A stretch of DNA of 64,000 nucleotides from assembly GCF_037023745.1 (NCBI RefSeq), contig NZ_CP146101.1:6712001-6776000 (forward strand), read 5' to 3'. The notes under the pieces were generated by a model. That model was not told the DNA's origin. It searched no databases and saw nothing but the letters and a program-made list of their open reading frames with translations. Position 1 is the first letter of the stretch, and the number at the start of each line of letters is the position of its first letter. Shown here piece after piece: positions 7,501-60,592 of this stretch. The position numbers and the translations under genes were made by a program. This DNA comes from Streptomyces sp. SCSIO 30461. Its GTDB lineage: Bacteria; Actinomycetota; Actinomycetes; Streptomycetales; Streptomycetaceae.

Positions 7501-8597
7501 ACCTCATCCGGCTCGTGCACCTGCTGCTGAAGCAGGTGCAGCACGGTGACCCCCATGTCGGCCAGCCCCACGGCCGCATCCGGCCTGGGGAGTTCGGTCG
7601 CGGTGCGGCCGTGCTCGTCGCTGATGACGAGGAGCCTGTCCGCGAGTTTCAGGGCCCTCTGGTCCGACAGCCCGCGACGCACCTCGGCGGCGTAGGAGGC
7701 CCGACGCTTCAAATCCGCGCGGAGCAGGTCGGCCAACTGATCCATGCTCGGCGCGATCCGCCGCGCAGGGGACGGCCCGTCCAACTGATCCGGATCCAGC
7801 ACGTGCGGGAGCCACTTCGCCCACTGCCAGTCCTGAATCCTGTCGCCCGCGACGCCGAGGGCGAGGGCGACATCGCCAGGGGCGTGCAGCGCGGCAGTCT
7901 GGACCACCAGCGCGCGGGCGACCCGCAGAACGGCCTCCCGGTCCTCGCCGATAATGCTGACGTTCCCCGCCCGGTCCAGCGGCACCGCCAAGGGAAAGTC
8001 ACTGGTCGCGCTGTAGCGGGCGAGCAGCGCTCGGGCCTCGTTCAGCATGAACGGATCCGGCGGCGTCATCACACTCCCGCCACTCTGCCCGATCTCCAGC
8101 CTCTGCACCGGCACCCGCCCCGTGCCGAGTCGCACATGGAGGAAGTCCGCGTCCAGACGGCGCCGCTCCCACACCCGCGCCGCATCGCGCACGATGTCGT
8201 ACAGGGCAGCCGGAGCGGGATTGAGCAACCGGGCTTCCTCACGCCGTCCCCGTTCGACGCGGCTCAGTTCCTCGCGCATCTCCTCGAGATACTCCAGATA
8301 CCGCTCCCGCTGAGCACGCCGGGTCCGCTGCGCCTTGCCCCGCTGCGAAACAAACAGCGCCACCGCACCCAGCAGGGCAAAGACCAGCACGATCGCCCCG
8401 ATCGCGGCGAACTGACTGTTACGGATCACGGTCATCATCACGACCGAACCCATCACCCCGGCCATCGGCAGCAGCGCCGTCGCCGGAGTGCCGATCTTCC
8501 CCTCGGGCAGGTTAGGCGGCGGCTCGATCGTGCGCGCCACCACGGCAAGGGACGGCCGTGTGGAGCGGGCCGGACGGTGCATGAGCTGCTGGGTCAT
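4593..8597 (-). CDS. eccC: EccC-type type VII secretion ATPase (three FtsK/SpoIIIE domains)
   Basis: 1334 aa, the motor of an ESX/type VII secretion machine at the cytoplasmic membrane. Two membrane helices lie near residues 38-58 and 63-83, followed by a basic and coiled segment. Three ATPase domains follow, with Walker A motifs GATGSGKS (about 490), GGPQSGKTTT (about 840) and GDSECGKTNL (about 1127), and Walker B-like LLVVIDEFGELL in the first. This is the full-length single-chain EccC architecture, not the split EccCa/EccCb form. Start and stop overlap the neighbouring MinD-like and DUF6177 genes by four bases each, so all three are tightly coupled. Confidence 0.93.
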   Translation of the reverse strand: MTQQLMHRPARSTRPSLAVVARTIEPPPNLPEGKIGTPATALLPMAGVMGSVVMMTVIRNSQFAAIGAIVLVFALLGAVALFVSQRGKAQRTRRAQRERYLEYLEEMREELSRVERGRREEARLLNPAPAALYDIVRDAARVWERRRLDADFLHVRLGTGRVPVQRLEIGQSGGSVMTPPDPFMLNEARALLARYSATSDFPLAVPLDRAGNVSIIGEDREAVLRVARALVVQTAALHAPGDVALALGVAGDRIQDWQWAKWLPHVLDPDQLDGPSPARRIAPSMDQLADLLRADLKRRASYAAEVRRGLSDQRALKLADRLLVISDEHGRTATELPRPDAAVGLADMGVTVLHLLQQQVHEPDEVSVRVTVDGDRVGVEDLRSPAGVEAYGIVDEVSIPGVEGLARMLAPLRLSAESVEDGTPVSGPVDFPGLLHIDDPAALDLVRLWATRGERDFLRVPIGVDDHHKPVLLDLKESSELGMGPHGLCVGATGSGKSELLRTLVLALTATHAPHDLALVLVDYKGGATFAPFTRLPHVAGMITNLENQAGLVERVHTSLAGEVKRRQQVLKDAGDVADIGHYAALREQKPELGLEPLPHLLVVIDEFGELLTAKPDFIDLFLSIGRIGRSIGVHLLLSSQRIEAGKLKGLETYLSYRLGLRTFSADESRTVLDTTDAFNLPPLPGFGYLKVDTSTYERFKAGYVSGSYRGPALREKPKDEPLAWPYPTFNTLGSEAATPADEPAMRERETGPSVMSVMVDQLAQAAEPVRRIWLPPLPTVISLDQVAGPLDVSARGLHLAQRPGPLRVPLGILDDPATQRQSVWSLDLTVSGGHSALIGGPQSGKTTTLRTLALSLALTHTPRDVALYGLDLAGGGLSTLAKLPHVGGIAGRADHERAARTVAEVRAMLGEREELFRSHGIDSPEQLRHVRSQGRLAELTATDVVLLIDGFGALRDEFADLEDDVNDLLKRGGGYGVHVVAGMLRWNDVRIATQAMFGTRVELRLNDPGDSVIDRKLSETLHPDEPGRILTDGRLFAHVALPRIDGRTTTGDLAAAVEEATASVRASWHGDLAAPVRVLPTRLPADKLPGLAAEPRSIPIGVDQDAIAPVNLDLFGADQHLLILGDSECGKTNLLKLIVDQLTARYTDEELVFGVFDPRRGLRGLIPEPYRGGYAYNTNLANALATGITGELAKRLPDESVNHDTLTDLPTAFTGPRIVILIDDYDILTTTGQQPLGPFLPYISSAPDIGLHFVIARRVAGLSRALHEPMLTTLRESGTTALVMTGERTEGQLFPGLYASPQPPGRGTLVRRGRRHQLIQTALAPHQQEAPGP

Positions 8598-9853
8598 GGC
8601 GTCCTCACCGCGAACCGCAAAGCCTCGGCAGCCAGTTGGACGGCCGCCTGCGACGTGGCCTGCGAAAGCATCGAGTTGACAATCGGGCCGCCCGCGCCCA
8701 GATGCCTGTCATAGGGCACGTGCACCACGGACACCCCGGTCTCGCGCAGATATCCCATAGCGGCCTTCACATCGAGACGGATGTGCGGGGAGCTCTCACA
8801 CAGGGCGACCGCCGTGTGGGCGAGCGTCGGCGCGGGCAGGTGGGCCAGCCAGTCGAGGACCTGCCGGGTTCCGTCGACGCCCTCCGCGGTCGCCGGCACC
8901 ACGAGCACCCGGGAGTGCGCGGTGCCTATCGCGGTGCGCGCCACCTCTCCGGGCAGCGACTCGCAGTCCACCACCGTCACCCCGAAGTAACGGCGCAGGG
9001 CGAGGCTCACACTCAGATACGTCGCCACCTCCAGCGGCGGCCCGATCCGCCCCTGCCCGGCCGGCAACAACCAACCCCCGCCCGTCACCGGCACCAGATA
9101 GCCAGTCACATCCGTGAGCAGCATCGACGGCTCAAGAATCCCGGCCAGATCCGTACACGACCAACGCACCGTCTCCGCGCCAAGACGCACCGGCAGAGTA
9201 CCGAGCGCGGCGTCCGCCTCCAGGGCCAGCACCGGGTCATGCCTGTAACGGCTGTACGTCCGGGCCAGCAACGCCGAAATGGTTGTCTTGCCCACACCAC
9301 CCCGGATCGACGTCACCGCGATAACCCGGCCGGTGGTCACCGGCTGCTGCACATCGCGGGCCAACTGCGTCTGCTCGAACACCTCCTGGGACGCGGACGA
9401 GGCCAGCTTGCGCAAGGAACGGCCCGTGCGGCGGACCGCCGACTCACCATGCACCGGCCGCGACAGGGCCGCAGCCAGGCGGGGATCAACCGTGGGCACC
9501 GACTCCGGAGTGGAGGTGGGCACGCGCGGATCGCGCGGTGTGCTCTGGATTGCCTGTCGTGCGTCCGCACGCGGCTGAGGAAGCGGAGACGACGGTACGG
9601 TGCGCGGGTCGGCCTGCGCCGGAACTGGCGGCACAGGAGCCGACACGGCAGGGGAAGCGACCTGTCCGGCGGCCCGTGGATCGGGCCCAGGCGCCGGTGC
9701 GGGCGCGGCAGGCTGAGGTGCGACGGGCACCACGGCAGGCGCACCAGACGGCTTCCGCACGAGTTGCACCGTCTTGGTCGGCTCGACCGGCTGCTCAGTG
9801 CCCGCCTGCTTCAACTCACGCAGCACATCCTGCTGCCAGTCGCCTCCAGCCAT
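8594..9853 (-). CDS. MinD/ParA-like ATPase of the type VII locus
   Basis: 419 aa. ATG at 9853 is chosen because a strong GGAGGGGAG ribosome-binding site precedes it; a TTG 24 bases upstream lacks one. Residues 1-140 are a proline/alanine-rich low-complexity region. The C-terminal part is a SIMIBI-class ATPase with the deviant Walker A RGGVGKTT (about 185), LALEADAALGTLPVRLG (switch I region) and VTVVDCESLPG. Such MinD-like proteins with disordered N-termini are frequent partners of ESX components in actinobacteria. It overlaps eccC by four bases. A role in positioning or regulating the secretion machine is inferred, not shown. Confidence 0.85.
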   Translation of the reverse strand: MAGGDWQQDVLRELKQAGTEQPVEPTKTVQLVRKPSGAPAVVPVAPQPAAPAPAPGPDPRAAGQVASPAVSAPVPPVPAQADPRTVPSSPLPQPRADARQAIQSTPRDPRVPTSTPESVPTVDPRLAAALSRPVHGESAVRRTGRSLRKLASSASQEVFEQTQLARDVQQPVTTGRVIAVTSIRGGVGKTTISALLARTYSRYRHDPVLALEADAALGTLPVRLGAETVRWSCTDLAGILEPSMLLTDVTGYLVPVTGGGWLLPAGQGRIGPPLEVATYLSVSLALRRYFGVTVVDCESLPGEVARTAIGTAHSRVLVVPATAEGVDGTRQVLDWLAHLPAPTLAHTAVALCESSPHIRLDVKAAMGYLRETGVSVVHVPYDRHLGAGGPIVNSMLSQATSQAAVQLAAEALRFAVRTP

Positions 9854-9898
9854 CGCCGCACTCCCCTCCAAGCCCAACAGGGCCGTACGCTCACCCGA

Positions 9899-11263
9899 TC
9901 AGAAACTGTCGAGCAAACGCCCGTACACACCAAACACCCCGATGACCAGCGGGAACAGAGCAATCACACCCACCGTCTCCAGCAGATCACCCAACCGGCG
10001 CAACCGTACCCGGACATGTTCGGCAGGCTCCACCGCCAACACCACCAACGGCACCACCGCAAAGGCCGTGAGCACCGTGAGCGGACCGACCGCGGCCTCG
10101 GCATGCCGCAGCCACACGCTGACGAGCTCGAAAGCCGCCGCGCTCCCTGCCAGCAGGAGCACCACCACCTCGGCGATCAGCGGGAAGGCCCGTGCCCGCA
10201 GAATGAGCACCACCGCGGTGATCACAGCCAATGGAACGGTCCACGCAGTGGGCGTCCGCAAGAGGAAGACAACGGCGGCAGCCGAGGACCCCGCCGTGAC
10301 GATCGTGGCCAGCACCAAGCCTCGGTGGGTGGCCGTCAGGGCGCTGCCCACCTCGTGGCGGCTCACCGAAACCCCGCCCAACCGACGGTCATCGAGCCCC
10401 GACAGTCCGGAAGCCATCAACGCCACGCGCGGCAGCACCCCCAGCGCCACCACGGAAACAGCGGCCAGCACGGCCCCCACTCTGGCCTGCTCACCCGCGG
10501 TCGAAGCCCCACCCTGCAAAGCCGCCACACCGCCCCAGCAGACCGCGAAGGCGGCCACCGCACCGGCACCGATCAGCCCGCCCCGCCCCAGCGGGGAAAC
10601 CCAGCCCAACAGCAACAGCGCCACCACCACAGCCGCGGCAACAACCGTCAGCCGGGCAACACCCGACCACATCTGTGCATCAGCCAGCGTCCAGGACCCG
10701 AGCACGGCGAGCGCCCCACCGGCGATGACCAACGTGGTGGCCAGCCCACGCCGCCCGGCCCGACCGCAGAGCGCCCCGCCGGCCACGGCCATGACAGCGA
10801 CCACCAGCAACACACCAGCGACCGCTGACAGCCCGAACTCACCGCGCGCAAGCACCCCGGCGCCCAGCGCCCACAGCACCACCGCGGCCCCGGCAGTCAC
10901 CCGCCGTGCTGCGGGCCGCCAACGCCAGGTCCGCAGCCCCAAGTCCTCAGCCACCTCATCAGTGACGTCATGCACCACAGGAGCCGACGGCGCATCCTCC
11001 GCCCGCACCAGCCGCAACACCGCACCATCGGCCACCCCTGCCGAAGCAAGCGTGCTGCCATACGCGAGCGCGGAACCATCCACCGTCACCAGGTGCCGAC
11101 CCGACGGCCGCCCACCCACCCGGTCGTCCAACAACCGCAGAACTTCCGGCAAAAGCCGCCCGATCGGCTCGTCCGAGGGCAGCACCAGATCAATGCGCAG
11201 ACGCTCACCGACAAGCGTGACCCGGCTCAACCCCGCCCGGCCCGCGACACTCACAACCCCCAT
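9899..11263 (-). CDS. eccD: EccD-type membrane channel protein of type VII secretion
   Basis: About 454 aa from the ATG at 11263 (MGVVSVAGRAGLSRVTLV); an in-frame GTG a few codons upstream is possible. The first 90 residues look like the YukD/ubiquitin-like cytoplasmic domain of EccD (LPSDEPIGRLLPEVLRLLDD, then a beta-rich VTVDGSALAYGSTLASAGVAD). The rest is about eleven membrane helices, matching EccD topology. It forms the membrane pore of the ESX complex with EccC. It is preceded by a small membrane protein gene and followed by the MinD-like gene, all in one orientation. Confidence 0.88.
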   Translation of the reverse strand: MGVVSVAGRAGLSRVTLVGERLRIDLVLPSDEPIGRLLPEVLRLLDDRVGGRPSGRHLVTVDGSALAYGSTLASAGVADGAVLRLVRAEDAPSAPVVHDVTDEVAEDLGLRTWRWRPAARRVTAGAAVVLWALGAGVLARGEFGLSAVAGVLLVVAVMAVAGGALCGRAGRRGLATTLVIAGGALAVLGSWTLADAQMWSGVARLTVVAAAVVVALLLLGWVSPLGRGGLIGAGAVAAFAVCWGGVAALQGGASTAGEQARVGAVLAAVSVVALGVLPRVALMASGLSGLDDRRLGGVSVSRHEVGSALTATHRGLVLATIVTAGSSAAAVVFLLRTPTAWTVPLAVITAVVLILRARAFPLIAEVVVLLLAGSAAAFELVSVWLRHAEAAVGPLTVLTAFAVVPLVVLAVEPAEHVRVRLRRLGDLLETVGVIALFPLVIGVFGVYGRLLDSF

Positions 11264-11285
11264 AGCCACCACGCGTTCGAACTTA

Positions 11286-11549
11286 TCACCGAGCCGAACG
11301 CGAAGAAGCGGACTGCTGCACACCTGGCCCATACGACGATTTCCCGATCAATCGTTCAGAAATGAACGACCAACCCACACACCCCGCACACAAAACGGCC
11401 GCGATCACAATCCCGGCAAAGACCTTGCCGACCCGCTCATCAAGAGACCGCCGCGCCCGCTCACCCCCGAACAGAAACGCGTCCCGCATCCGCCGACGCC
11501 GGACCGACACCGACTCCAGCAACTGACTGTCGTACTCCTGCGCGCCCAC
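11286..11549 (-). CDS. Small single-pass membrane protein in the type VII operon
   Basis: 87 aa, GTG start with GAGGA ribosome-binding sequence upstream. The N-terminal half is charged (SVRRRRMRDAFLFGGERARR), followed by one hydrophobic helix VFAGIVIAAVLCAGCVGWSF, an SERLIGKSSYGPG segment and a short tail. I recognise no family. Position between the immunity gene and eccD suggests an accessory membrane subunit of the secretion apparatus. Confidence 0.6.
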   Translation of the reverse strand: MGAQEYDSQLLESVSVRRRRMRDAFLFGGERARRSLDERVGKVFAGIVIAAVLCAGCVGWSFISERLIGKSSYGPGVQQSASSRSAR

Positions 11550-28423: not shown

Positions 28424-29050
28424 ATGACAGAGTCGACCGCACACCGCAACACTTCGACATCTCTGCCCGACATCAACTCGGTCTCAGCGCGAGCAAGTTG
28501 GGTCGGAAGCGTAGCTTCCGACACTCCCGCCCCAGAGGGGGCGGGAGAGGACCTGCACCGGGGGGCGCAGGTCCGGGAGGCTTCGACCGAGGGCGGATCG
28601 AAGCCGGGACAGGAGGAGAAGCCGACCACCCGCGCCAGCCGCCGTGAGCGCGCGTCCCGTGCCCGTCAGCGTCCGCGCCAGCCGCCCGCAAAGAAGCGTC
28701 TGCGTCAGCCCAACACGCGTTTCAACGATGATGAGTTCGCTGTGATCAAGTCCGCCGCCGCCCGATGCAACCTGTCCGTCGCCGGGTTCCTCGCCCGCTC
28801 CGCGCTCGCCGCCGCCCGCGATCTCGACCGCACCCGTACTGAGATCGCCGACGAACGCGAAGTGATCACTGCCCTGTTCGAGAGCCGACGCAGGCTCGGC
28901 TGGGCCGGAAGCAACCTCAACCAAGCCGTCAAGGCGCTCAACTCCGGTGCCGACGCACCCCAACTCGACACGGCCATCGCCGCCGTACGACGGGCGGCCG
29001 AGTCCGTCCACGCCGCAACCACTCAGCTCATCGACCAGCGCACCGCATGA
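28424..29050 (+). CDS. MobC-like relaxosome accessory protein
   Basis: 208 aa from ATG 28424 (GAGG 9 nt upstream). The first 90 residues are low complexity and overlap an array of DNA hairpins. The conserved part is QPNTRFNDDEFAVIKSAAAR, CNLSVAGFLARSALAAARDL, and GSNLNQAVKALNSG, the classic MobC/NikA-type segment (N-x-N-Q-x-A-K-A-L-N) of MOBP-type relaxosomes. It overlaps the relaxase start by four bases (ATGA, 29047-29050). It should bind oriT and assist nicking. Confidence 0.85.
   Translation: MTESTAHRNTSTSLPDINSVSARASWVGSVASDTPAPEGAGEDLHRGAQVREASTEGGSKPGQEEKPTTRASRRERASRARQRPRQPPAKKRLRQPNTRFNDDEFAVIKSAAARCNLSVAGFLARSALAAARDLDRTRTEIADEREVITALFESRRRLGWAGSNLNQAVKALNSGADAPQLDTAIAAVRRAAESVHAATTQLIDQRTA
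28503..28605 (+). repeat. Array of four consecutive perfect hairpins, oriT candidate
   Basis: Within 103 bases: TCGGAAGC-3 nt-GCTTCCGA (28503-28521), CTCCCGCCCC-4 nt-GGGGCGGGAG (28524-28547), GGACCTGC-10 nt-GCAGGTCC (28549-28574), GGCTTCGA-11 nt-TCGAAGCC (28579-28605). All stems are perfect. They sit directly upstream of the conserved part of mobC, next to the relaxase, where an origin of transfer is expected. Confidence 0.6.
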
Positions 29051-30744
29051 TCCCCAGCGTCAACAAGTCCGGCTCGCGCACCATCGGCCTGCTCAAATAC
29101 CTCTACGGCCCGGGCAAACGCGAAGAACACATCGACCCGCACCTCATCGCCTCGTTCGACGGTATGTCCCCCGACCCCGGCCGCGCCCCGAACGCCACCC
29201 TGGGGGATCTCCAGCAGCTCCTCGACCAGCCCGTCATGGTACTGCCGAAGCACGCCCGTCCCGCCAAGCACGTGTGGCATACCTCCGTCCGCGCCACCGC
29301 GAACGACCGGATCCTGAGCGACGAGGAATGGGGTGAGATCGCCCGCCGGGTCGTGGCCGCGACCGGTATCGACCCCGGCGACGGCAAGCCCGGCTGCCGC
29401 TGGGCTGCCGTACGCCACGCCGATGACCACATCCACATCGTCGCCACCCTCGTCTGCGAGGACGGCAGCCGACCCGACGACTGGCGCTCCGGCAGCCGTG
29501 CCCAGGCCGAATGCCGCCTCATCGAGAAGGAACTCGGCCTGCATCAGGTCGCCCCGGGGGACGGCACTGCCGCCCAGCGGCCTACGAGCGCCGAGCGCCA
29601 CAAGGCAGAGCGCCAAGGGCGGGAGCGGACCGCTCGTGAGGAACTGCGCGAGACGGTACGGCGCGCGGTTGCCGGAGCCCAGGGCGAAGAAGAGTTCTTC
29701 GAGCGGCTGGCCGCCGCCGGCCTGCTGATCCGCAAGCGGGCCGCCCCCTCCGGGGACCTGCTCGGATACAAGGTCGCCCTGCCCGATGACCTCAACAAGG
29801 ATGGCGAGCAGGTGTACTACCCCGGGGCGCGCCTGGCACCGGACCTGTCGCTGCCACGGATCCGGGAACGCTGGTCCGCCAACCCCCCTCCCCAGGGCGC
29901 TGGCACGCAGGCCAAGGCCAGTGGGCCGTCCGCTGCGCGTCGCCGCGTGGCCTCTGTCGCGTGGCAGGGAGTCCTGGTCCTCGAGCACGCTGACGATGCG
30001 GTCGCCGCCGCCTACATCGCAGCGACCGGCGAGGTACTGGATGCGCTTGCGAAAACCTCCGCAGCCCATACGCGCCGGGAACTGCGTGAAGCTGCCTGGG
30101 CATTCGAGCGGGCCTCACGCTCCCACGTCCGTGCCGAGCGCGGCCATGACCGGGCCCTTCGGCAGGCCGCCCGGGACCTCGTCCACAGCGGCCCGGCCCT
30201 CGGTCGCGGAGAGGACGCCGCGATGACCGCGATGGCGATCGACATGATCTTCTTCCTCATCACCGCCGCCGCGCACTGGCACGCCAAGAAGAAACACCAC
30301 CAGCAGGCAGCCGCCGCACGCGCCGCCGCCGAACATCTGCGCGCCGCCTACCACACGGCCGCCGCAGAACCCCTCCGCGCGCTCCACCAGCGCGGCCAGC
30401 GGCTGAGCCGCCCCCTGCTGCAGCGACAGGCGGTGCTGCTGCGCGAGGCACTGCCAGGACTGGCCGAGGAGATCCTCGCCGAGCCCGGTTGGTATGCCCT
30501 CGCCGCCACCCTCACCGACGCGGAAGCTGCCGGGCAGGATCCTGCGGTCTTGCTCGCCGATGCCGCCGGGCACCGTGAACTGGATACCGCCGAATCCGTC
30601 AGTGACGTCCTCATGTGGCGGCTGCGTCGAGCTGCCAGCCTTCCGGCAGATACAACTGGCCATCCCACGCCCAGCGGCAGGGATGTCGGGCCGTCGCTTG
30701 GGGCAGACACCGAGCGGCAACGCCCCCGTCGCCGGACGAGGTAG
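29047..30744 (+). CDS. Relaxase / mobilization nuclease
   Basis: 565 aa. The N-terminal domain has relaxase features: SRTIGLLKYLYGPGKREEH, WHTSVRATANDRILSDEEW and the metal-binding histidine cluster RHADDHIHIVATL (HUH-type 3-His motif) near residue 140. The helical C-terminal half has hydrophobic helices (MTAMAIDMIFFLITAAAHW) and may contact the coupling machinery. Together with MobC it would nick at oriT and pilot single-stranded DNA. No coupling ATPase is in this module, so the element would be mobilized in trans, possibly by the cluster at 52.7-64 kb. Confidence 0.85.
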   Translation: MIPSVNKSGSRTIGLLKYLYGPGKREEHIDPHLIASFDGMSPDPGRAPNATLGDLQQLLDQPVMVLPKHARPAKHVWHTSVRATANDRILSDEEWGEIARRVVAATGIDPGDGKPGCRWAAVRHADDHIHIVATLVCEDGSRPDDWRSGSRAQAECRLIEKELGLHQVAPGDGTAAQRPTSAERHKAERQGRERTAREELRETVRRAVAGAQGEEEFFERLAAAGLLIRKRAAPSGDLLGYKVALPDDLNKDGEQVYYPGARLAPDLSLPRIRERWSANPPPQGAGTQAKASGPSAARRRVASVAWQGVLVLEHADDAVAAAYIAATGEVLDALAKTSAAHTRRELREAAWAFERASRSHVRAERGHDRALRQAARDLVHSGPALGRGEDAAMTAMAIDMIFFLITAAAHWHAKKKHHQQAAAARAAAEHLRAAYHTAAAEPLRALHQRGQRLSRPLLQRQAVLLREALPGLAEEILAEPGWYALAATLTDAEAAGQDPAVLLADAAGHRELDTAESVSDVLMWRLRRAASLPADTTGHPTPSGRDVGPSLGADTERQRPRRRTR

Positions 30745-34914: not shown

Positions 34915-35736
34915 TCAGGATGCCGGGGCCTGAAGGAGCCGGTCCCTGGTGCTGTCCGGGAGTACCCGGCGCAGGACGGGTGCGGTGGAGCTGAGGGAGT
35001 GGGCGAAGGCGGCGATGATGTCGTGCGGGACGCTCGCGCTGAAGGATGCCGCCCACAGGCACGGGGCGCCCATGACGGGTTCTACCCACGCCTGCCATCC
35101 GAGGGGCCCCTCATCGTCCGGCTGGAGGGTCAGGACGCGCGGGTCCGCGTCCTGGATGAGCGGGGGTACCTCGCCCAGGCTGACGCATGCGGTGAAGGTA
35201 GGATCCGCCGCCTGTGCGTTCGGCTGATCGGCATCGCGATACCAGCCGTGAGCAGCTACCGCATCGATCACGCACTCGGGGCCGGTGCGGACCACGGTCG
35301 GAGCGTCGTGGGCGTCGAGGGCATGGGCGAAGTCGGAGACGGCCTCGCCGGGGACGCCGAAGGTGAAGTATGCCGACCATCCGGCAAGTGGGCTGCGCGT
35401 GTCCGCGCGGGCGGAGAACTGCCAGGCGATGGGCAGGTCACCGAGGTGGAACGGCTCGTCGGGGAGGGTCCATTGGGCCCACCGGAGGGTGTCGGGGCTG
35501 ATGTGGAGGACGGTACTGCGCAGGACCTGCCGGTCCTCCTCCGCTTGGTCGGGCTCGCGTCGGCCGCGGATGATGGCCAGGCTGCTCCAGCCGAGTCCGG
35601 TGAGGGTGTCGGCGACGGCGTCGTAGAGGCATCCGTCGTCGCCGGCCAGGTGCCGGGGCCCGACCCAGTACGCGGCCAGAGAGCCGGCCGGGGAGGAAGC
35701 ATCGAGTGGGAATTCGGGGTTCAGGGGCGCCTCCAA
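34915..35736 (-). CDS. DUF317-domain protein
   Basis: 273 aa, TTG start with GGAG five bases upstream. Two copies of the DUF317 fold can be read: YWVGPRHLAGDD... GWSAYFTFGVPGEAVSDFAHAL, and LGWQAWVEPVMGAPCLWAAS ... PHDIIAAFAHSL. DUF317 proteins are of unknown function and typically sit on Streptomyces plasmids and integrative elements. A second, shorter one follows upstream in the same orientation. Confidence 0.75.
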   Translation of the reverse strand: MEAPLNPEFPLDASSPAGSLAAYWVGPRHLAGDDGCLYDAVADTLTGLGWSSLAIIRGRREPDQAEEDRQVLRSTVLHISPDTLRWAQWTLPDEPFHLGDLPIAWQFSARADTRSPLAGWSAYFTFGVPGEAVSDFAHALDAHDAPTVVRTGPECVIDAVAAHGWYRDADQPNAQAADPTFTACVSLGEVPPLIQDADPRVLTLQPDDEGPLGWQAWVEPVMGAPCLWAASFSASVPHDIIAAFAHSLSSTAPVLRRVLPDSTRDRLLQAPAS

Positions 35737-35778: not shown

Positions 35779-36138
35779 TCACAGATGCGGTGAGGTCTCC
35801 AGCACTCGTGCCACTGCGGCGGCGACGATGTCAGCCGGCGTCTCCGTGTCGAACGCGATGCTGTAGCCGGGGACGCTCGCCGTGCCGGTGACGGCGATCT
35901 TCCACCCCTCACCCTTCGTACCGGGACGCCCATCAGGGAACCATCCCAGGTAGAAGCGCCCATCCTTCGAGCTGATGTGGACATCCGCACGGTCGTCCAC
36001 GACCAGGTGGAAGTCCTGGGCGGTGAACTGGTCGGTCACCAGCGTGTGCTGGCCGGGACCGAGTTGCCAGTCGCGGAGCCTGAGGGCTTCGACAGTGGTG
36101 GCAAATCCGGGGCTCGACGGAGCCACGGTCATGGTCAT
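35779..36138 (-). CDS. Short DUF317-like protein
   Basis: 119 aa from ATG 36138; ATG 36132, eight bases from the GAGAGG, may be the real start. One domain with FYLGWFPDGRPGTKGEGWKI, AVTGTASVPGYSIAFDTETP, ADIVAAAVARVLE, consistent with a single DUF317-type unit. It precedes the longer DUF317 gene by 42 nt in the same operon. Its 5' side abuts the left end repeat of the caspase cassette. Confidence 0.65.
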   Translation of the reverse strand: MTMTVAPSSPGFATTVEALRLRDWQLGPGQHTLVTDQFTAQDFHLVVDDRADVHISSKDGRFYLGWFPDGRPGTKGEGWKIAVTGTASVPGYSIAFDTETPADIVAAAVARVLETSPHL

Positions 36139-36251
36139 CACCTCTCTGACCTGGCAGTTTAGGGAAGACTGTCTACGTTGACATGACCCTGCAATGGTTG
36201 GCCAGTCATTCCCGGCTCTTTCCTGTCTGCCCCAGGCGAACTGTCCTTCGT

Positions 36252-36321
36252 CATCCAATCGAGGCGTTTGACAGCGAACGCAGTCGTCTGGGCTTTTCTG
36301 ACAGTGAATCTAGTCGTGAGG
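36252..36321 (+). repeat. Left end repeats of the caspase cassette
   Basis: 36252-36287 matches the inverse of 41853-41888 at 31 of 36 bases. It contains a unit TGACAGCGAACGCAGTCGTC (36269-36288), repeated 30 nt further on as TGACAGTGAATCTAGTCGTG (36299-36318), five bases before the ATG at 36323. A degenerate third unit lies outermost (about 36250-36268). Confidence 0.8.
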
Positions 36322-36322
36322 G

Positions 36323-39300
36323 ATGACCAGCCTCGATCCCGATAGCCTGGTGACCGAAGCGTACGGGCACGGGGGGATGATGGTTCGAGCACTTCTGCTC
36401 GGGGTTGGGACCTTTGAGAACGTGGTCGACGGCGAGTGGAGCCCTACGCCGGAGGGGTTGCTTCCGCTGCCGTCGGTTGAACCGCAGGTGCGTGAACTCG
36501 CCGAGGTGCTTTCACACTTCGACGGGCTGAACGTCAGTGAGCCGTTGATCGACGCGGACTGGGTCAGCGTTAGGGAGAACTGGCGGCAGCTGCGGAACGA
36601 CTCAGCAGGCCGGCCGCGTATCGTTCACTTTGCCGGTCACGGAGTCTCTCGTGGCCGGATCTTGTACCTGCCCGTGCACGACAGCCGTCTGACCGACCTT
36701 CCGGAGTCTGCGATCGATGTCGGCCGATGGCTGAACGAGGTCGAGCACGGCTCCGACCAATCTTCCGTCCTATTCCTGCTCGATGTTTGCGGTGCAGGGG
36801 CCGCGACGGACTACCAGCTGTTCCAGGATGTTCCCGAGGGCGATCGAAAGACCTGGGTGATTGCGGCCTGCACGGCGGACGAGAGCGCCTTCGATGCACG
36901 GTTCACCAAGGCCACAGCCCAGGCGCTGGAGCGGCTCCGCTTGGGGCACTGGGATATCTCTCCGACTCTGTCCCACGTGCCCGTGGAGGCTGTCGCCGAC
37001 GAGATCGCGCGGGAGCTGGTCTGTCTCGGCGAAGGGTATCCGCAAACTGTGGTGCACTCGCCGCGCCGAGCCGCCTCGTTGGCGGTACCGGAGTTCTTCG
37101 TCAACCCGGCGTTTAGCACTGACGGCTGGCAGCGTTTTCGGAGCCGACTCCGGTTTGCAGTTCGGGAACTGGCCGCTGAGTTCGACCCGGGTCTGGACCC
37201 AGTGCACTTCATCACCCGGGCGTCCGGCCGCCTAGACGACGACGCTGTTGCGTTGATGGGTTGTCTCTTCACTGGGCGGACACGTGAGCTCACCCAGATT
37301 CGCTCCTGGTTGGCGAGCGACGAACCCCTGTTGCTGGTGACCGGAAGCCCCGGGGCAGGAAAGTCTGCGCTGCTGGGGGTGACGGTCTTCCTGTCGCACA
37401 ACCAGCTCGCCGAGCTGAGTACCGGGCTGGTTGGCCGCATTCGTGCTCAGTACCGCCCGGAGCGTCGGTACCCGACTCTTGTCGCGGTCCATGCCCGGCA
37501 CCGGAGCACGGACGAGGTGATCGCGTCGATCATGGTTCAGCTGTCTTCTGAGGACGCAAAGTCGGCAGTTGCTAGCAGTGAGCAAGCTCTGGACAAGCTC
37601 AAACGCATCGCCCAGGACCTGCCGGAACCGGTGGTACTCATCATCGATGCCATTGACGAAGCCCTAGAGAGCGATCGCATCGCCCGCAATCTGCTCCCCG
37701 AGCTCCTGCGCACACTCCGCTCTGACGGCCACCCCGCCTTCCGGGCGCTCGTGGGAATGCGCCCGCCGCAGGCGGACGGCCACCGGTTCTGCGAGGTGCC
37801 CGGTGCCCACGCGATGGTGCTCGACCTGGACACCTCCTCTGATATCGAGGACCTCGCGGACGACCTCACGACCTACATCGCCGACATCCTGGACAGCGGG
37901 TCCGGTTACAACGACCAGGCCCTTCGTGAGTCCGTAGCCCGTGCGGTCGCCACCGAAATCGCCCATAGCCCCGATCGCAGCACCTTCCTTGTCGCAGCAC
38001 TCTTCGCCGAATTCCTGCGAACCGGTGCACCCTTGACTCCCGAGGAGGCGGTCGCTCAACTGCCGCAGAACCTGCCGCTCCTGCTCGAACTGCACCTGCG
38101 GACCGTGCTGGACGGCGACCCGTGGATGCGGCACTTGATGGTGGGGCTGGCACAGGCGCGCGGTCAGGGTATGCCGCTGGAGCTTGTGGCCGCAGCAGCC
38201 ACCGCTGCCGCCATGGCCGCAGGTAAGGATCTCCGCCCGCTGCCCCCAGGCGAGGCCCGTGAGAAGCTGGCTACTGCCCGCTTCTATCTGCGGACGAACA
38301 TCGACTCGGACGGACGTCAGCTCTACCGGTTCTTCCACGAGACGATCACCGAGCACTTCCGTGACGCCGGGGCCGAACTCGACGGGCTCGCCGAGACGCT
38401 TTTTCACGAGCTATTGTCGGCCGTCCCCGGGCGGTGGGCCGCTGAAGGGCCTCGGTGGGACCTCGCCGCACCGTATCTGCTGCGACATCTCATGGAGCAT
38501 GCCGTCGCTGTTCCGGGCGGATCTGCGGTCGACCAGCTCTTCCTTGACCCGGAGTACCTCGTCCGCGCCGACCACGCTGGCATCTGGGAGGCAGTCCACA
38601 GGACGAAGACCCCCACAGCGCGGCGAGCCGGAGCCGCGTACCGGAAGGCATTCGGCCGCTTCGATCTCGGCAGCCTCTTCGGCCAGCGCATACCGCTAGA
38701 GACTCGACGTGCCAAGCTTCAGCAGAGCCTCGTGACCTACCAGGCGGCCGGGCTCGCACGCCGCCTCCACGACGAAGGGGCCCCGCTCCGCACGTACTGG
38801 AGCACGGGCTTGCCTGAGGAGTCCCTGCTGTACGTCATCGGCGCGGACGAGTTGGGCGCCACCGTGTCAGCCCTCGCCCTGGGAGCCGTCGATCGACGGC
38901 TCCTCGCCGTGTTCGGCGGCACCGATGGCTCCCTCCAAGCGTGGGACATCACACCGAGCCCTGACAGCGCGGTCCAGTACTTCTCGGCTTCGAGGACGGA
39001 CAAGGGCGCCATCACCCAAATGGCGATCGTGGATCTGGATGAGCGGGCAGTCATCGCCTCGGTGACTGACCAAAACGCTCTCCTGCTGTACGACCTCGCA
39101 ACGGGTGCGCTCGTCGCCGACACATGCCTTGACGGCGCGAGGGTTTCAGCCCTGACAGTCGTTGGCAGCGGCGACGAAACGGCCCTTGCAGTCGGTCGAG
39201 TCAGTGGCGAGATCAGCCTAGTCGGCCTCCTAGACGAGTCATTCGGCAGGCTCCTCGACACCGTCGAAGCCGGGGACGCCGCCATCGGTTCGTTGCTCGG

Positions 39301-40912
39301 CGTGGAGTCCACGGACGGCTCCCTCGCCTTCCACTACGTTTCCGCCCAACCCCAGGGACATGAGCCGAGGGTGCTGCGGAATCTGGAAGAGCGGCCCGTC
39401 ACCATCTCCTCGGAGGGACCGCTCCAGGAGGTACGGATCCAACCCACGGACACGCGAACCCCGCTATTCTCGCTCATCGCCTACCACCCCGGCATGTGTG
39501 CGGTAAGGCGGAACGGTGAGACCGTCCACGTCATCACGGGGCCCAAAGACCGCGGGTTGGCACTCGCAGACATCCGTCATGTCGACCGCTTTCGGCTCGC
39601 GCTGACCGCCCATCGCGACGGCAACATGCGGGTGTGGGACCTCGACGTTTGCCCGGCGTTCGGTCACGGCCAGAACCACTGGCACCCCGCCGCAGTCCTC
39701 GGCACCATCCGGCTCGGCGGCTCGGAGCTCGCCCTCAGCGCCGAACTCGCGTTTGGTGAGATCAAGGCTTGGGACCTGAAGACTGGCGCCGAGGATCACA
39801 GACTGACCGACCTGGGCAAGCTCAGCCATGCCGCCACCGTCACAGCTGGCGACGGGTCCTACGTCGTCACGGTGAACACGGAGAACGACCTCGACACCTG
39901 GAATGTCCGTGAGGATGCCCTGGAATCGACAGTCCGCCTCCCCGCCCCGGCCACCGCGTTGGCCGCTGTGCCGCACGGCGATTCGGTGTGGGCCGTGGTC
40001 GGCGCTGCCGACGGCAGTATCCATGTGTGGGACACGAACAAGGAGTCACTCTCCCACGCCCTCGCCGACGTGGAGGGGCCGGTCACGGAGCTGATCGCGG
40101 GCGACGTCGGCGGCGAGTCTCTCCTGATCAGCGTCCACGACGAACGCACGGTCTGTCTCTGGTCCCTGGCTGACAGCACCCTGCGGCAAACGATCACGCT
40201 GGACCGGATCGGAGCGATCGCGATACAAGGTGGGCGGCTGTTCGCTGCCGAGCAATCGTCGAACGGCGATCAGGTGCGGATCTGGGACCTTGCGACGGCC
40301 TCACTCGTGGGCTCTGTCGCCGTGGCCAGCCCTCAGCTGATGGCTGTCAGCCAAGTAAACGGCAGGCCGGTACTCGTGACCGCTGTCAGCAAGGCGGAGA
40401 TCCAGGCATGGGATGTCGAAACCGGAGACCCACTCGGACATCCGGCCTCGGTGCCGGATCGAGTCCACACAATCGCCCCCTACGAGAGCGGCGTCCTGGT
40501 AGGCAGCAAAGCTGGCCACGTCACGGCCCTCGGCTGGGCCTGCCCCGCAGAAGCGTCGGCACTCCGCCCGACGAGGCCGACCGTCCAGGTCACCCACGTC
40601 CTGGCTTGGTTGCCGGGCGAACTGCTATGCGGCGATGCCCGCGCAGACGGATGGGAGTTGTACACAGTCGACGAATGGGAGAGAGGGCTGCCGCCCTCCT
40701 TCGGCCTGATCTACGCCCGCCCCATCACTGCGACGACGAACGAACTCCACGATGCTCTCGTCCACGTACTGACGCCGCGCGGCTATGAGGTCGTGCGGCT
40801 GGAGGCACACGACTACGAGATCAGCAAGGTCGACGGCGTGACCACCGGCGGCCCGTGGCGATTCCCGGCGTACTCCGTTCATTGCCACTCGGAGGAAGGA
40901 CCAGAGCAGTGA
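36323..40912 (+). CDS. Caspase-like protease / STAND NTPase / WD40-repeat protein
   Basis: 1529 aa (ATG 36377 or 36380 would trim 18-19 residues and begin directly before the first caspase strand RALLLGVGTFEN). Residues about 20-260 are a caspase-like (C14) domain with catalytic His106 in HFAGHGVS and Cys156 in LLDVCGAGA. A STAND-type NTPase follows with Walker A GSPGAGKS (341-348) and Walker B VVLIIDAIDEA (about 437-447). A helical region leads to WD40-type repeats from about 850 to 1430 (DGSLQAWDI, DGNMRVWDL, DGSIHVWDT, ERTVCLWSL, QVRIWDLAT, EIQAWDVET) and a 90-residue C-terminal domain. This sensor-switch-protease layout is known from bacterial conflict/immune proteins: the WD40 part senses, the NTPase oligomerises and the caspase cuts a partner. 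The hydrolase gene overlaps its stop. Confidence 0.9.
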   Translation: MTSLDPDSLVTEAYGHGGMMVRALLLGVGTFENVVDGEWSPTPEGLLPLPSVEPQVRELAEVLSHFDGLNVSEPLIDADWVSVRENWRQLRNDSAGRPRIVHFAGHGVSRGRILYLPVHDSRLTDLPESAIDVGRWLNEVEHGSDQSSVLFLLDVCGAGAATDYQLFQDVPEGDRKTWVIAACTADESAFDARFTKATAQALERLRLGHWDISPTLSHVPVEAVADEIARELVCLGEGYPQTVVHSPRRAASLAVPEFFVNPAFSTDGWQRFRSRLRFAVRELAAEFDPGLDPVHFITRASGRLDDDAVALMGCLFTGRTRELTQIRSWLASDEPLLLVTGSPGAGKSALLGVTVFLSHNQLAELSTGLVGRIRAQYRPERRYPTLVAVHARHRSTDEVIASIMVQLSSEDAKSAVASSEQALDKLKRIAQDLPEPVVLIIDAIDEALESDRIARNLLPELLRTLRSDGHPAFRALVGMRPPQADGHRFCEVPGAHAMVLDLDTSSDIEDLADDLTTYIADILDSGSGYNDQALRESVARAVATEIAHSPDRSTFLVAALFAEFLRTGAPLTPEEAVAQLPQNLPLLLELHLRTVLDGDPWMRHLMVGLAQARGQGMPLELVAAAATAAAMAAGKDLRPLPPGEAREKLATARFYLRTNIDSDGRQLYRFFHETITEHFRDAGAELDGLAETLFHELLSAVPGRWAAEGPRWDLAAPYLLRHLMEHAVAVPGGSAVDQLFLDPEYLVRADHAGIWEAVHRTKTPTARRAGAAYRKAFGRFDLGSLFGQRIPLETRRAKLQQSLVTYQAAGLARRLHDEGAPLRTYWSTGLPEESLLYVIGADELGATVSALALGAVDRRLLAVFGGTDGSLQAWDITPSPDSAVQYFSASRTDKGAITQMAIVDLDERAVIASVTDQNALLLYDLATGALVADTCLDGARVSALTVVGSGDETALAVGRVSGEISLVGLLDESFGRLLDTVEAGDAAIGSLLGVESTDGSLAFHYVSAQPQGHEPRVLRNLEERPVTISSEGPLQEVRIQPTDTRTPLFSLIAYHPGMCAVRRNGETVHVITGPKDRGLALADIRHVDRFRLALTAHRDGNMRVWDLDVCPAFGHGQNHWHPAAVLGTIRLGGSELALSAELAFGEIKAWDLKTGAEDHRLTDLGKLSHAATVTAGDGSYVVTVNTENDLDTWNVREDALESTVRLPAPATALAAVPHGDSVWAVVGAADGSIHVWDTNKESLSHALADVEGPVTELIAGDVGGESLLISVHDERTVCLWSLADSTLRQTITLDRIGAIAIQGGRLFAAEQSSNGDQVRIWDLATASLVGSVAVASPQLMAVSQVNGRPVLVTAVSKAEIQAWDVETGDPLGHPASVPDRVHTIAPYESGVLVGSKAGHVTALGWACPAEASALRPTRPTVQVTHVLAWLPGELLCGDARADGWELYTVDEWERGLPPSFGLIYARPITATTNELHDALVHVLTPRGYEVVRLEAHDYEISKVDGVTTGGPWRFPAYSVHCHSEEGPEQ

Positions 40913-41775
40913 CGATCCTCGCAGTGCACGGCATCGGCAACCACCTGAGTGGCCGATCGCCAGAGCAGGCGGCCACTCAACTGGCAGAGCAGTGGCAGCT
41001 CAAACTTCAGCAGGGGTTCACGGCCGCCGGACTGGGCGACCACCGACTCCCTTCCCTGAACGCCGCGTACTACGCTCACCACACCCACGCCGCCGAGCGG
41101 CAGGCTGCAGTGCCGGACGTACTTGCCCTCGACGAACGAGAACAGTCCGTAGTCATCGCCTGGGCGCTGGCCCTAGGTTCACCCACCCTCCAGGAACGGC
41201 AGGGACTGATTACCGCACCACTGCGGCAGGTCCTGTCCTGGCTTTCCCAACGCCGCAAAATCCCCATCGGGACAGTCATTCGGCTCGCCGTCCAACTGGC
41301 GGGCGAGGCCCGCCGCTACCTCCACGTTCCGCAGGTACGGGCTGCCGCCCGATCCACCGTGGCCGAGTCGATCCGACGAGTGCAGCCCCGCGTGGTGCTG
41401 GCGCACTCCCTCGGCTCCGTTGTCGCGTACGAGGCTCTCCATGCTCACCCGGAACTGACCGTGGACTGCTTCGTGACCTTGGGATCCCCCCTTGGCCTGC
41501 CGGGCGGGATTTTCGATCACCTGGTGCCTGCGCCAATCGCCGATCGGGGTGCCCGACCTGCCGGAGTCCGCTACTGGGTGAACCTCGCCGACACAGGTGA
41601 CCTGGTGGCGATTCCTCATCGGCTCGGCGACCGATTCCCCGTTGACCAGCACGCCGACATTCCGATGGGCCGTATCGACTTCCACACCTTCGGAGCGTAC
41701 TTGTCTTCCCCGCTCACCGCTGCAGCGATTACGCCCTTCGTCCTTAACCCGACAGCCCCGGACCAGATCGCCTGA
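40909..41775 (+). CDS. Alpha/beta-hydrolase coupled to the caspase-STAND protein
   Basis: 288 aa, GTG start overlapping the caspase-STAND stop (GTGA), with GGAGGAAGG upstream. The N-terminus TILAVHGIGN carries the oxyanion-hole HG motif. The nucleophile elbow is LAHSLGSVV (Ser167, with A in place of the first G of G-x-S-x-G). Candidate Asp is in VNLADTGDLV (about 226-229) and His in DFHTFGAYL (about 261). No signal peptide. It may be the effector (lipase or esterase) or the proteolytic target of the caspase-like partner; both are inference from coupling. Confidence 0.85.
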   Translation: MTILAVHGIGNHLSGRSPEQAATQLAEQWQLKLQQGFTAAGLGDHRLPSLNAAYYAHHTHAAERQAAVPDVLALDEREQSVVIAWALALGSPTLQERQGLITAPLRQVLSWLSQRRKIPIGTVIRLAVQLAGEARRYLHVPQVRAAARSTVAESIRRVQPRVVLAHSLGSVVAYEALHAHPELTVDCFVTLGSPLGLPGGIFDHLVPAPIADRGARPAGVRYWVNLADTGDLVAIPHRLGDRFPVDQHADIPMGRIDFHTFGAYLSSPLTAAAITPFVLNPTAPDQIA

Positions 41776-41852: not shown

Positions 41853-41890
41853 ACGACTAGGTTCACTGTCAAACGACTCGGTTGGATGTC
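41853..41890 (-). repeat. Right end repeats of the caspase cassette (inverted)
   Basis: Read on the minus strand this is two directly abutting 20-bp units, TGACATCCAACCGAGTCGTT (outer) and TGACAGTGAACCTAGTCGTG (inner). The inner unit matches the unit just before the caspase ATG at 19 of 20 positions. The 36-bp core is the inverted partner of 36252-36287. Confidence 0.8.
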
Positions 41891-41903
41891 AGAGCACTGA
41901 CCC

Positions 41904-58488: not shown

Positions 58489-59031
58489 ATGCGCCAGTTC
58501 AAGCGTTCCGCCTCCACCGCCGTCGTCGTCGCCGCGCTCGCCGGCACCGCCGCCGTAGCGACCGCTACCCCCGCCGCAGCCGCCGGCTACACGTGCAGCA
58601 CCAGCAGCAAGTCCATCGACGACGCGGCCTACACCGGCCCCTGGGCCGACAACTGGGATGTCACGGTCACCCTGTGCGCCAAGCGCTCCGGGTCCACCGT
58701 CTACTCGTACGCGAAGATCAGCTGGGACGGACCGGCCTACGGTCAGGTCGACGACAGCACCATCTTCGACGGCGCCTACTTCACCCTCCAGGTCAAGCGG
58801 TCCCAGTCGGGCACCGACCCGGTGATGAAGTCCGCCCACTCCTACGGCATCCAGAGCGCGCTGGAGAACAGCGACTCGAACGCCAACTACAACAACAGCT
58901 ACACCACGCCCGTCCTGAGCTACCCGATCGGCTCCGCAAAGGGCCTGGGCGACGGTGAGCTCCTCCTCGACTGGAACAACGACGGCAAGGGCTACGAGAA
59001 GCACCTCTTCACCGCCTCCCCCGTGGTCTGA
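58489..59031 (+). CDS. Secreted protein of unknown function
   Basis: 180 aa with a signal peptide (MRQFKRSASTAVVVAALAGT, cleavage after AAA). The mature part is beta-rich (DDAAYTGPWADNWDVTVTLC, SYAKISWDGPAYGQVDDSTI, LENSDSNANYNNSYTTPVLS) with two cysteines likely disulfide-bonded. No family recognised. Its place inside a conjugation cluster suggests a surface or aggregation role. Confidence 0.65.
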   Translation: MRQFKRSASTAVVVAALAGTAAVATATPAAAAGYTCSTSSKSIDDAAYTGPWADNWDVTVTLCAKRSGSTVYSYAKISWDGPAYGQVDDSTIFDGAYFTLQVKRSQSGTDPVMKSAHSYGIQSALENSDSNANYNNSYTTPVLSYPIGSAKGLGDGELLLDWNNDGKGYEKHLFTASPVV

Positions 59032-59077
59032 CCCGCACCACGCCCGAGACCGCCGTCACCCGAAAGTCACCGCCGCC

Positions 59078-60592
59078 ATGACTCACCGGCCCGCCCGCCG
59101 AGCCCGCCGCGCCTCCGCGAGCCCCCTGTTCACCCCGCACCGCGCCGACCGCGCCAGCCGCAAGGCCGCCCGCAGGCGGCTCGCGGAAGCCACCGCGAAA
59201 GCCCGTACCGAGGCGGCGTCCCGCCCCGCAGGCACCGAACGGGCCGAAGCGGAGATGCCCGCGCCGCTGTATCCGGCGGGCGGGCGGCCCGGGCATGGCT
59301 CAGCGCGCGGCAACCGGCTAAGGCTCCCCGCCCACCGCATGACCACCGCCGTCGCGGCCGGGGCGTATCCGTTCCTCGCCGAGGGCGGACTCGGCGCCGA
59401 GGGCGTCTACATCGGCCGCGACGTCCACGCCGAAGCATCGTTCGTGTTCGACCCGTTCGCCCTGTACGGGAAGGTGGCGGGCTTCACCAACCCCAATATC
59501 CTGCTGGCCGGGGTGATCGGACAAGGGAAGTCGGCCCTGGCGAAGAGCTTCGCGTTGCGGTCGATCGCCTTCGGCTACCGGGTGTACGTGCCCTGCGATC
59601 CCAAGGGCGAGTGGACGCCCGTCGCCCAGGCCCTCGGCGGCACCTCAGTCGCCCTCGGCCCCGGGCTCCCCGGCAGACTCAACCCCCTGGACGCCGCCCC
59701 ACGCCCCGAGAGCGTCTCGGAGGCGGACTGGGCGGGTGAGATCCGCAAACGGCGCCTGCTCCTGCTCGGCTCGCTCGCCCGCACCGTCCTGGGGCGGGAC
59801 CTCGCGCCGATGGAGCACACCGCCCTCGACGTCGCCCTGGACGCGGTGGTCACCCGCGCCACCCAGACGGGCCGCACCCCGCTCCTCGGTGACGTCACCG
59901 CGGCCCTGAACAACCCCGACGAACTCAACACCGTCGGCGGCACGATGTCCGGACGGCTCGATGACGCGGCACGCGACCTGGCCCACGCCATGCGGCGCCT
60001 CGTCCACGGCGACCTCGCCGGCATGTTCGACGCCCCGAGCACCATCGCCTTCGACCCGGCCGCGCCGATGCTCACCATCGACCTGTCACGGCTCGGCGGA
60101 TCCGGCGACGACACCGCCCTCGTCCTCGCCATGACGTGCGCCTCCGCCTGGATGGAGTCCGCGCTCACCGGCCCGGGCGGCGGCAGGCGCTGGATCGTCT
60201 ACGACGAAGCCTGGCGCCTCATGCGCCACGTCGGCCTGCTGCAGCGCATGCAAGCCCAGTGGAAACTCTCCCGCGGGCTCGGCATCGCCAACCTCATGGT
60301 CATCCACAGGCTCAGCGATCTACTCACCGCGGGCGACGCCGGCTCCCAGGGCCGAGCCCTCGCCGAAGGGCTCCTCGCCGACTGCTCCACCCGCATCATC
60401 TACCGCCAGGAAACCGACCAACTCCACGCCGCCGCGTCACTCCTCGGCCTGACCTCCGTGGAGATGGAAGCCATCGCCCACCTCAACCGAGGACGTGGCC
60501 TATGGAAGGTGGCAGGACGATCTTTCATCGTCCAGCACCAGCTCCACGCACACGAATTGACTTTGTTCGACACCGATTCCCGCATGCATTGA
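59078..60592 (+). CDS. VirB4-like ATPase of the conjugation-type cluster
   Basis: 504 aa. A basic N-terminus of 90 residues precedes the ATPase: Walker A GVIGQGKSAL near 157, Walker B-like RWIVYDEAWRLM near 370, and downstream motifs LMVIHRLSDLLTAGDAGSQ and STRIIYRQETDQL typical of the C-terminal domain of VirB4/TraU-like ATPases. It should energise the transfer apparatus. Its stop region overlaps the beginning of the parB reading frame. Confidence 0.88.
   Translation: MTHRPARRARRASASPLFTPHRADRASRKAARRRLAEATAKARTEAASRPAGTERAEAEMPAPLYPAGGRPGHGSARGNRLRLPAHRMTTAVAAGAYPFLAEGGLGAEGVYIGRDVHAEASFVFDPFALYGKVAGFTNPNILLAGVIGQGKSALAKSFALRSIAFGYRVYVPCDPKGEWTPVAQALGGTSVALGPGLPGRLNPLDAAPRPESVSEADWAGEIRKRRLLLLGSLARTVLGRDLAPMEHTALDVALDAVVTRATQTGRTPLLGDVTAALNNPDELNTVGGTMSGRLDDAARDLAHAMRRLVHGDLAGMFDAPSTIAFDPAAPMLTIDLSRLGGSGDDTALVLAMTCASAWMESALTGPGGGRRWIVYDEAWRLMRHVGLLQRMQAQWKLSRGLGIANLMVIHRLSDLLTAGDAGSQGRALAEGLLADCSTRIIYRQETDQLHAAASLLGLTSVEMEAIAHLNRGRGLWKVAGRSFIVQHQLHAHELTLFDTDSRMH

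Follow-up and report, generated by a model that had tools for sequence, protein, structure and literature searches.

A conserved caspase-STAND-WD40 and alpha/beta-hydrolase gene pair on a Tn7-like unit in Streptomyces sp. SCSIO 30461

What joins a caspase-like protein to the alpha/beta-hydrolase encoded immediately behind it, and how did the two genes reach the site where they now lie? The question is raised by a locus in a stretch of 64,000 nucleotides from Streptomyces sp. SCSIO 30461 (positions 6712001-6776000 of a single 8.05-Mb contig), which as a whole is called the window here and in whose numbering positions are given. An earlier note on this DNA, made from the sequence alone, had proposed an undescribed immune or death system in which the hydrolase is the effector or target. 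We find that the conserved pair on a Tn7-like unit is real and that the hydrolase is a likely effector, and we infer that the caspase gates it; a role in phage defence is putative. On balance we favour the reading as a whole, i.e., an immune or cell-death module of two genes that forms the cargo of a non-autonomous Tn7-like element and works as proposed below.

The two genes and how far they travel together

The first gene (36323-40912, forward strand) encodes a chain of 1529 amino acids, with an alternative start at 36377, and the second (40909-41775, forward strand) a hydrolase of 288 amino acids, whose GTG start overlaps the stop codon of the first (GTGA). Within the first chain, on the same strand, a caspase domain (36377-37132) with an H106/C156 dyad, and with D154 in a DxC motif, is followed by a STAND NTPase (37196-38506) with K347 in its Walker A motif and by a stretch of WD40 beta-propeller (39593-40411), where the best profile matches lie, all of them below cut-off. 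In these particulars, and in S167 of the hydrolase, what the earlier note had observed is confirmed.

The caspase domain has the fold of a C14-like, caspase-superfamily peptidase, although it misses the threshold of the curated family NF047832 (42.7 bits, cut-off 140) and, taken alone, matches no Pfam family at E 0.01. The STAND NTPase scores above the Pfam cut-offs for NPHP3_N, AAA_16 and nSTAND1, and its Walker A and Walker B motifs are both readable. Of 88 aligned caspases, 85 carry a group label and three do not; all of the 85 keep H106, D154 and C156 (71/71 and 14/14). In a separate set of 37 the Cys is kept in all and the His in 36, the exception being a fusion protein, L115; loss of the Cys/His dyad in relatives, which the earlier note had named as counting against its reading, is therefore rare. 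The hydrolase has an alpha/beta-hydrolase fold with a nucleophile elbow and a Ser-Asp-His triad. Its S167, D231 and H259 are invariant in 20/20 hydrolases (alignment A1), and two members of a set of 39 (L109 and L115) have no His at the aligned position.

Measured against L159, G247 and L160, the ratio of nonsynonymous to synonymous substitution rates (dN/dS) is 0.15-0.25 for the hydrolase gene and 0.29-0.33 for the caspase gene. The WD40 part evolves fastest (0.38-0.43), which fits the expectation for a sensor. Between the G247 copy (L037) and the window, synonymous divergence (dS) is 0.20 in the WD40 part and 0.59 in the caspase part, unequal values that suggest recombination within the L037 gene.

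The co-occurrence of the two genes, a check that the earlier note had put forward, is borne out in two partly overlapping sets (e.g., L039/L169, L040/L170). A hydrolase search of 295 congeneric genomes gave matches in 125, and among the neighbourhoods of 40 of the best a caspase domain is present in 35 (18/20 and 17/20, with profiles built from these same loci). The five loci that have none are L038, which is broken and keeps a WD40 remnant only, L039, which lies at a contig end with WD40 adjoining, L109, L111 and L121. Gene order varies from caspase-hydrolase to hydrolase-caspase (L041, L045) and to convergent genes (L044, L051); in L055, L056 and L113 a caspase-STAND gene is followed by the hydrolase and then by a separate WD40 gene, and in L115 caspase-like, STAND and hydrolase parts form a single chain of 1705 amino acids.

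The second set, of named genomes, comprises the best 80 of 435 relatives, and in 52 of these loci a caspase was counted with the hydrolase. It lies at most 300 bp from the hydrolase open reading frame (ORF) in 47, at 1.5 kb in L224, and 1.7-2.5 kb off in L166, L180, L233 and L208, with the remaining part of a split or broken caspase gene in between; in L227, at 4.5 kb, it was not counted as paired. There is no caspase in 27 loci, of which three (L162, L169, L220) have WD40 only and the other 24 lack all three domains. Of the 28 unpaired loci 23 form one clade (support 1.0), outside which fall L183, L204 (at a contig end) and the three with WD40 only. This solitary clade is mostly from Nonomuraea and other Streptosporangiaceae. 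A neighbouring gene in L200, L221 and L192, three of the loci inspected, was read as PhoD-like, and the clade looks like a stand-alone hydrolase lineage.

Seen from the caspase side, a search of 150 genomes for caspase plus STAND gave ten best matches, the window included, all of which have the hydrolase. A further 20, more distant regions were picked for having no listed hydrolase match; three of them do have a hydrolase (L284-L286), one a weak partial match (L300), nine a caspase and no hydrolase, and seven STAND only. The hydrolase is thus tied to a near branch of the caspase family and not to the whole of it, so that the concern in the earlier note over caspase homologues that lack the hydrolase falls away for the closest relatives and holds for nine of these preselected regions. 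We regard it as very probable that the two genes act together.

Relatives of the hydrolase also occur with other partners. L269-L272 are single proteins of 715-752 amino acids with a C-terminal hydrolase of the same superfamily; L269, the sole one tested, was confirmed to hold a trypsin-like domain as well. In L273, L275 and L276 hydrolase relatives lie close to a caspase match; a gene for a NucA-type endonuclease between the two was confirmed in L276, again the sole one tested.

Ends, target site and spread of the unit

The transposon ends on either side of the pair had escaped the earlier reading. On the left is an R-type (tnsA-side) Tn7-like end (36242-36318, forward strand) with a TGTCC terminus and repeats at 36267-36287 and 36297-36317, and on the right an inverted R-like end (41853-41897, reverse strand) that has one complete repeat and whose terminus is shortened. 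The window holds two copies of the 19-base core of these inverted repeats, which frame the cassette, and 0/100 shuffles contain it. Allowing at most one mismatch, the 21-base repeat has three copies at the cassette and a single further one in the host genome, at 2.50 Mb (C1:2504910), and is found in 54/290 congeneric genomes, compared with 0 for a reversed control. The segment between the ends is filled by the caspase and hydrolase genes, with no tnsABC genes inside.

In L091, L099 and L105 a two-repeat array lies directly 5' of tnsA in a tnsA-tnsB-tnsC-tniQ series, which was verified against families in L099 (L091 has a split tnsC, and in L105 both tnsB and tnsC are split). Since the same array precedes tnsA in these relatives, the left border is read as an R-type end with the caspase gene in the place of tnsA, and the arrays at both ends resemble those of autonomous relatives. 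The copy at 2.50 Mb adjoins a truncated tnsA-like ORF near tnsB, tnsC and tniQ. That host locus (L057, 9132-17424) has two tnsA-like genes, one of them truncated and lying next to the R-type array, with an IS630-type element adjoining, and the other preceding tnsB, tnsC and tniQ. With an IS630-type transposase ORF next to C1:2504910, the repeats were also considered as IS630 ends; by eye the array stands outside the insertion sequence, beside the tnsA-like ORF, and this candidate was dropped.

Twelve elements of the family were scanned for 5-bp duplications, defined by TG..CA termini and identical flanks. These were found in eight (L159, L099, L105, L091, L104, L090, L089 and L093), compared with 11/2000 random positions, and under the same rule they were absent from the window, L092, L094 and L097, although in the last of these ACAGT was read by eye on either side, with a variant terminus. 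Units of ~1 kb between L- and R-type ends of the family are present in L092, L093 and L085; as the one in L093 has an ACGGC duplication, very small derivatives do exist.

The whole unit recurs in L159 (Streptomyces sp. SID10853) at 85% identity to the window, with perfect TGTCC/GGACA ends and ACTGG on both sides as a 5-bp target duplication. The homology has its right limit at 41897 and on the left continues into a common target flank, TCTTTCCTGTCTGCCCCAGGCGAACT (36217-36242, forward strand), whose last base is the first base of the element and which adjoins DUF317 genes. Searched with at most one mismatch, this target site was found at 22 places in 21/150 congeneric genomes; DUF317-like sequence lies beside 21 of the 22, and in eight, the window included, the family repeat (at most four mismatches) follows within 120 bases. 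The DUF317 gene at the target site (35779-36258, reverse strand; PF03771, 54.1 bits, cut-off 25) has an annotated TTG start that extends into the element, and its true start is probably internal. A second DUF317 gene of the target locus (PF03771) lies at 34915-35736, also on the reverse strand.

We therefore hold with high confidence that the pair is cargo of a Tn7-like element, at best a non-autonomous derivative with no tnsABC of its own. TnsABC-TniQ of autonomous relatives would act in trans on its ends and insert it beside DUF317 genes, and the module would spread because these proteins can do so; the basis of this model is the ends, the common target and the target duplication in a close relative.

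Several observations weigh against it. In the window copy the right terminus is shortened and an exact target duplication is missing, so that the copy may now be immobile. The genes of the G247 copy are 85% identical, but that copy has no ends and shares no flanks with the window. Among the 80 named and 40 congeneric hydrolase loci the end repeats (at most three mismatches) occur only at L159-L161, so the transposon packaging is confined to one lineage; in L160 and L161 the ends of the unit are partial or degenerate, and beyond the unit these loci are not homologous to the window. Could the repeats instead be an operator/promoter pair, or leftovers of two separate Tn7-like insertions, and not the ends of one element? 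The missing duplication, the R type of both ends and the place of the repeats directly 5' of the caspase gene, where the leader of tnsA lies in relatives, would all agree with this. We consider it highly improbable, since the unit in L159 has both termini and a duplication, on account of which promoter or operator function was rejected as the sole reading, and since the homology to the window stops at 41897. Moreover, in a related Tn7-like system two right ends are said, in the part of PMC13370975 drawn on here, to give transposition at a reduced level.

A sister Tn7-like element (L090, 3138-11202, in G183) has CCAGT on both sides and carries EACC1 and a caspase-nSTAND1-WD40 protein. By eye, a DUF317-like ORF adjoins it and its target flank is similar; an 82-amino-acid ORF read as a tnsA remnant gave no tblastn match at 1e-6. 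Among 50 motif loci, 30 of which are just ~3 kb long, L090 was the only further one with cargo matching the caspase profile. Two different caspase-based conflict systems, the pair and this EACC1-caspase system, are thus cargo of one Tn7-like family and adjoin the same kind of target site (in L090 as judged by eye), and through such packaging caspase systems would have a physical route by which to spread patchily among multicellular actinobacteria.

Glutamine dipeptides in two hydrolase loops

Also missed in the earlier reading was a motif, Q-[GSA], in two loops of the hydrolase. In the window it appears as Q65-A66 in loop 1 (41101-41106) and Q98-G99 in loop 2 (41200-41205), both on the forward strand and both candidate recognition or cleavage dipeptides. 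The second lies in the sole segment of the hydrolase model with a predicted local distance difference test (pLDDT) score below 50, residues 96-101 (ERQGLI).

To describe its distribution, 117 hydrolases were sorted into three sets: the 23 members of the solitary clade, a hand-set second clade that is also linked to caspases (group 2, of 16; monophyletic with support 0.88) and a hand-set remainder (group 1, of 78). In group 1, Q[GSA] is present in loop 1 (after YYA, residues 58-78) of 75/78 and in loop 2 (residues 90-106) of 64/78, the wider pattern [QM][GSAN] in loop 2 of 75/78, and Q[GSA] in 82/779 other 21-residue windows of the same hydrolases as background. Thinning to below 70% identity left 48/50 for loop 1 and, for loop 2, 40/50 and 48/50 with the strict and the wider pattern, respectively. 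The residue preceding Q is mostly E or A (28 and 27 of 75 in loop 1; 30 and 26 of 64 in loop 2). Elsewhere the motif is scarce, at 7/23 and 2/23 (loops 1 and 2) in the solitary clade and 2/16 and 1/16 in group 2. A basic version, [RK][GSA], stands in loop 1 of 12/16 group-2 hydrolases, and is not diagnostic of that group because the solitary clade has it too (15/23).

From this distribution we infer that the Q-[GSA] loop sites are read, and probably cut, by the caspase. Several points speak against this. The loop ranges were chosen after the motif had been noticed, so the counts are descriptive and not a formal test. Group 1 is not a clade, since group 2 nests inside it, and 6/78 of its members have no caspase ORF inside 2.5 kb. 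No Q[GSA] is present in loop 2 of 14/78, and L037 and L160, which are among the nearest relatives of the window, have Q-T in loop 1. The solitary clade keeps the motif in loop 1 of seven of its 23 members and, as a single lineage, counts once. Biochemistry on MALT1 and metacaspases ties the aspartate of DxC to Arg or Lys at P1, not Gln, and that aspartate, D154, is invariant here. Covariation of the S1 pocket between the hydrolase groups gave some discriminating columns (e.g., residue 193) and no clear reading. In the L115 fusion the caspase His is lost and, by eye, the matching region has no Q-[GSA]. This protein was considered as a natural test of gating, a use that is weakened because its hydrolase part, which resembles group 2, also has no aligned catalytic His; the fusion may simply have decayed.

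Proposed working and its place among known systems

In the working that we propose, the C-terminal WD40 propellers would detect an invader or damage cue, upon which the STAND NTPase, as expected of its family, would oligomerise with nucleotide exchange and, by analogy, gather and activate the caspase domains. The active caspase would then cleave the hydrolase at Q-G/S/A in one or both flexible loops and so unmask the lipase-like site, of which the motif and the Ser-Asp-His triad are observed. The freed hydrolase would attack lipids or another ester substrate, and the infected cell would halt or die. While the hydrolase is likely the effector or target of the system, we judge protease gating by the caspase to be evenly balanced, and a membrane lipid as target to be possible, a little short of even. 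Against a lipase stand the neighbours of the structure model, which include non-lipases and whose top fold matches are tied with the non-lipase ydeN (13.9), and a search of PDB sequences with the hydrolase profile that gave nothing convincing (best E 0.032).

There are two other ways to understand the pair. The Q-G/S/A loops may be a docking or structural feature, with caspase and hydrolase co-activated in a complex and nothing cut, a reading that gains from the DxC aspartate, which would fit basic P1 residues, from the rarity of the motif in group 2 and from the Q-T of L037 and L160. We think it rather unlikely, as the motif falls in the loop that is modelled with the least confidence and recurs in a largely similar context in two separate loops, as a recognised linear motif would. 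Alternatively, the hydrolase may be a captured regulator or housekeeping enzyme, removing, for example, a signal or an acyl group, while the caspase has other targets. Both the solitary clade (23/23 with no adjacent caspase, near a PhoD-like gene in three loci) and the distant caspase-STAND proteins with no hydrolase agree with this. However, the adjacency persists across several orders and a one-chain fusion exists, the loop motif is far commoner in the caspase-linked group, and other loci join the hydrolase superfamily to proteases; on these grounds capture appears unlikely.

A broader claim, which we offer tentatively and as somewhat doubtful, is that one lipase-like hydrolase superfamily has been paired repeatedly with unrelated proteases (caspase-STAND-WD40, caspase with NucA, and trypsin in one chain) as protease-gated pro-lipases, that the caspase form reads Q-G/S/A in two gating loops, and that R-R Tn7-like elements devoid of tns genes borrow TnsABC-TniQ to reach DUF317 sites. 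Such pro-lipases would be a lipid counterpart of protease-gated pro-nucleases. If true, proteolytic activation in bacterial immunity would cover lipase-like enzymes in addition to nucleases and gasdermins, and two exact candidate peptide bonds, Q65-A66 and Q98-G99, can already be named.

How much of this was known before? The sections of Kaur et al. 2020 (PMC7159879) used here state that in VMAP systems an alpha/beta-hydrolase gene is always found next to the caspase and predict that the two operate together, with a related alpha/beta-hydrolase effector in GAP1-N1 systems. The interpretation in the earlier note stands as to the conserved pair, the two retained active sites and the hydrolase as likely effector or target, whereas 'undescribed' was too strong. 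Common to both systems are a caspase-superfamily peptidase and an adjoining hydrolase gene. However, the ternary core described in those sections consists of VMAP with MoxR and vWA (or there is a GTPase core), whereas the window caspase is fused to STAND, with its Walker motifs, and WD40. VMAP-C has 0 matches in the host genome (G000), and the hydrolase profile has none at the 30 loci of the best VMAP-C matches (~1.5 kb flanks). The same sections describe two-gene EACC1-caspase systems with an N-terminal caspase and a variable C-terminal part that includes STAND. These share caspase and STAND with the pair, and the EACC1 system of L090 rides the same Tn7-like family, but no EACC1 gene lies beside the window caspase, which has opposite-strand DUF317 genes upstream, beyond the transposon end, and the hydrolase downstream; the score of its caspase domain below the NF047832 cut-off is a further difference.

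A parallel in mechanism is Canu, in which, according to the portion of PMC12799240 drawn on here, a caspase switches on a nuclease that bears conserved glycines in two insertions predicted to be disordered. Canu, Hachiman and AVAST resemble the pair in that a protease is co-encoded with a pro-enzyme bearing conserved residues in flexible loops, and the caspase domain of Canu is similar to MALT1 (same portion). The effector of Canu is an MBL-fold nuclease, whereas the window partner is, by fold and triad as read from sequence and model, an alpha/beta-hydrolase. As for the vehicle, Benler et al. 2021 (PMC8649781), in the passages used, report that TnsABC-type Tn7-like elements carry defence genes as cargo and note an Actinobacteria-dominated clade as experimentally uncharacterised; the window element differs from theirs in its two R-type ends and its lack of tns genes, and the terms 'nonautonomous', 'non-autonomous' and 'caspase' are absent from the text of that paper that was searched. 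By title and abstract, the two-gene pair and the element were not found among the open-licence papers listed, which is not proof of absence. Caspase/hydrolase pairing and Tn7-like defence cargo were already known; what is new is a form with STAND and WD40 that stands alone, the motif in the two loops and the packaging without tns genes.

Nearness to a defence island, to which the earlier note had also looked, is not established, PADLOC having returned two mad8 matches (13.4 and 30.2 bits) among the 12 window proteins scanned. The higher of these lies at 58955-60592 (E 7.6e-8). A few kb upstream of the pair is a relaxase gene (29047-30744, PF03432), from which the locus may lie within a conjugative or mobilisable island. 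Type VII secretion-like genes, including an FtsK/SpoIIIE ATPase and EccD, are present at 4593-11332.

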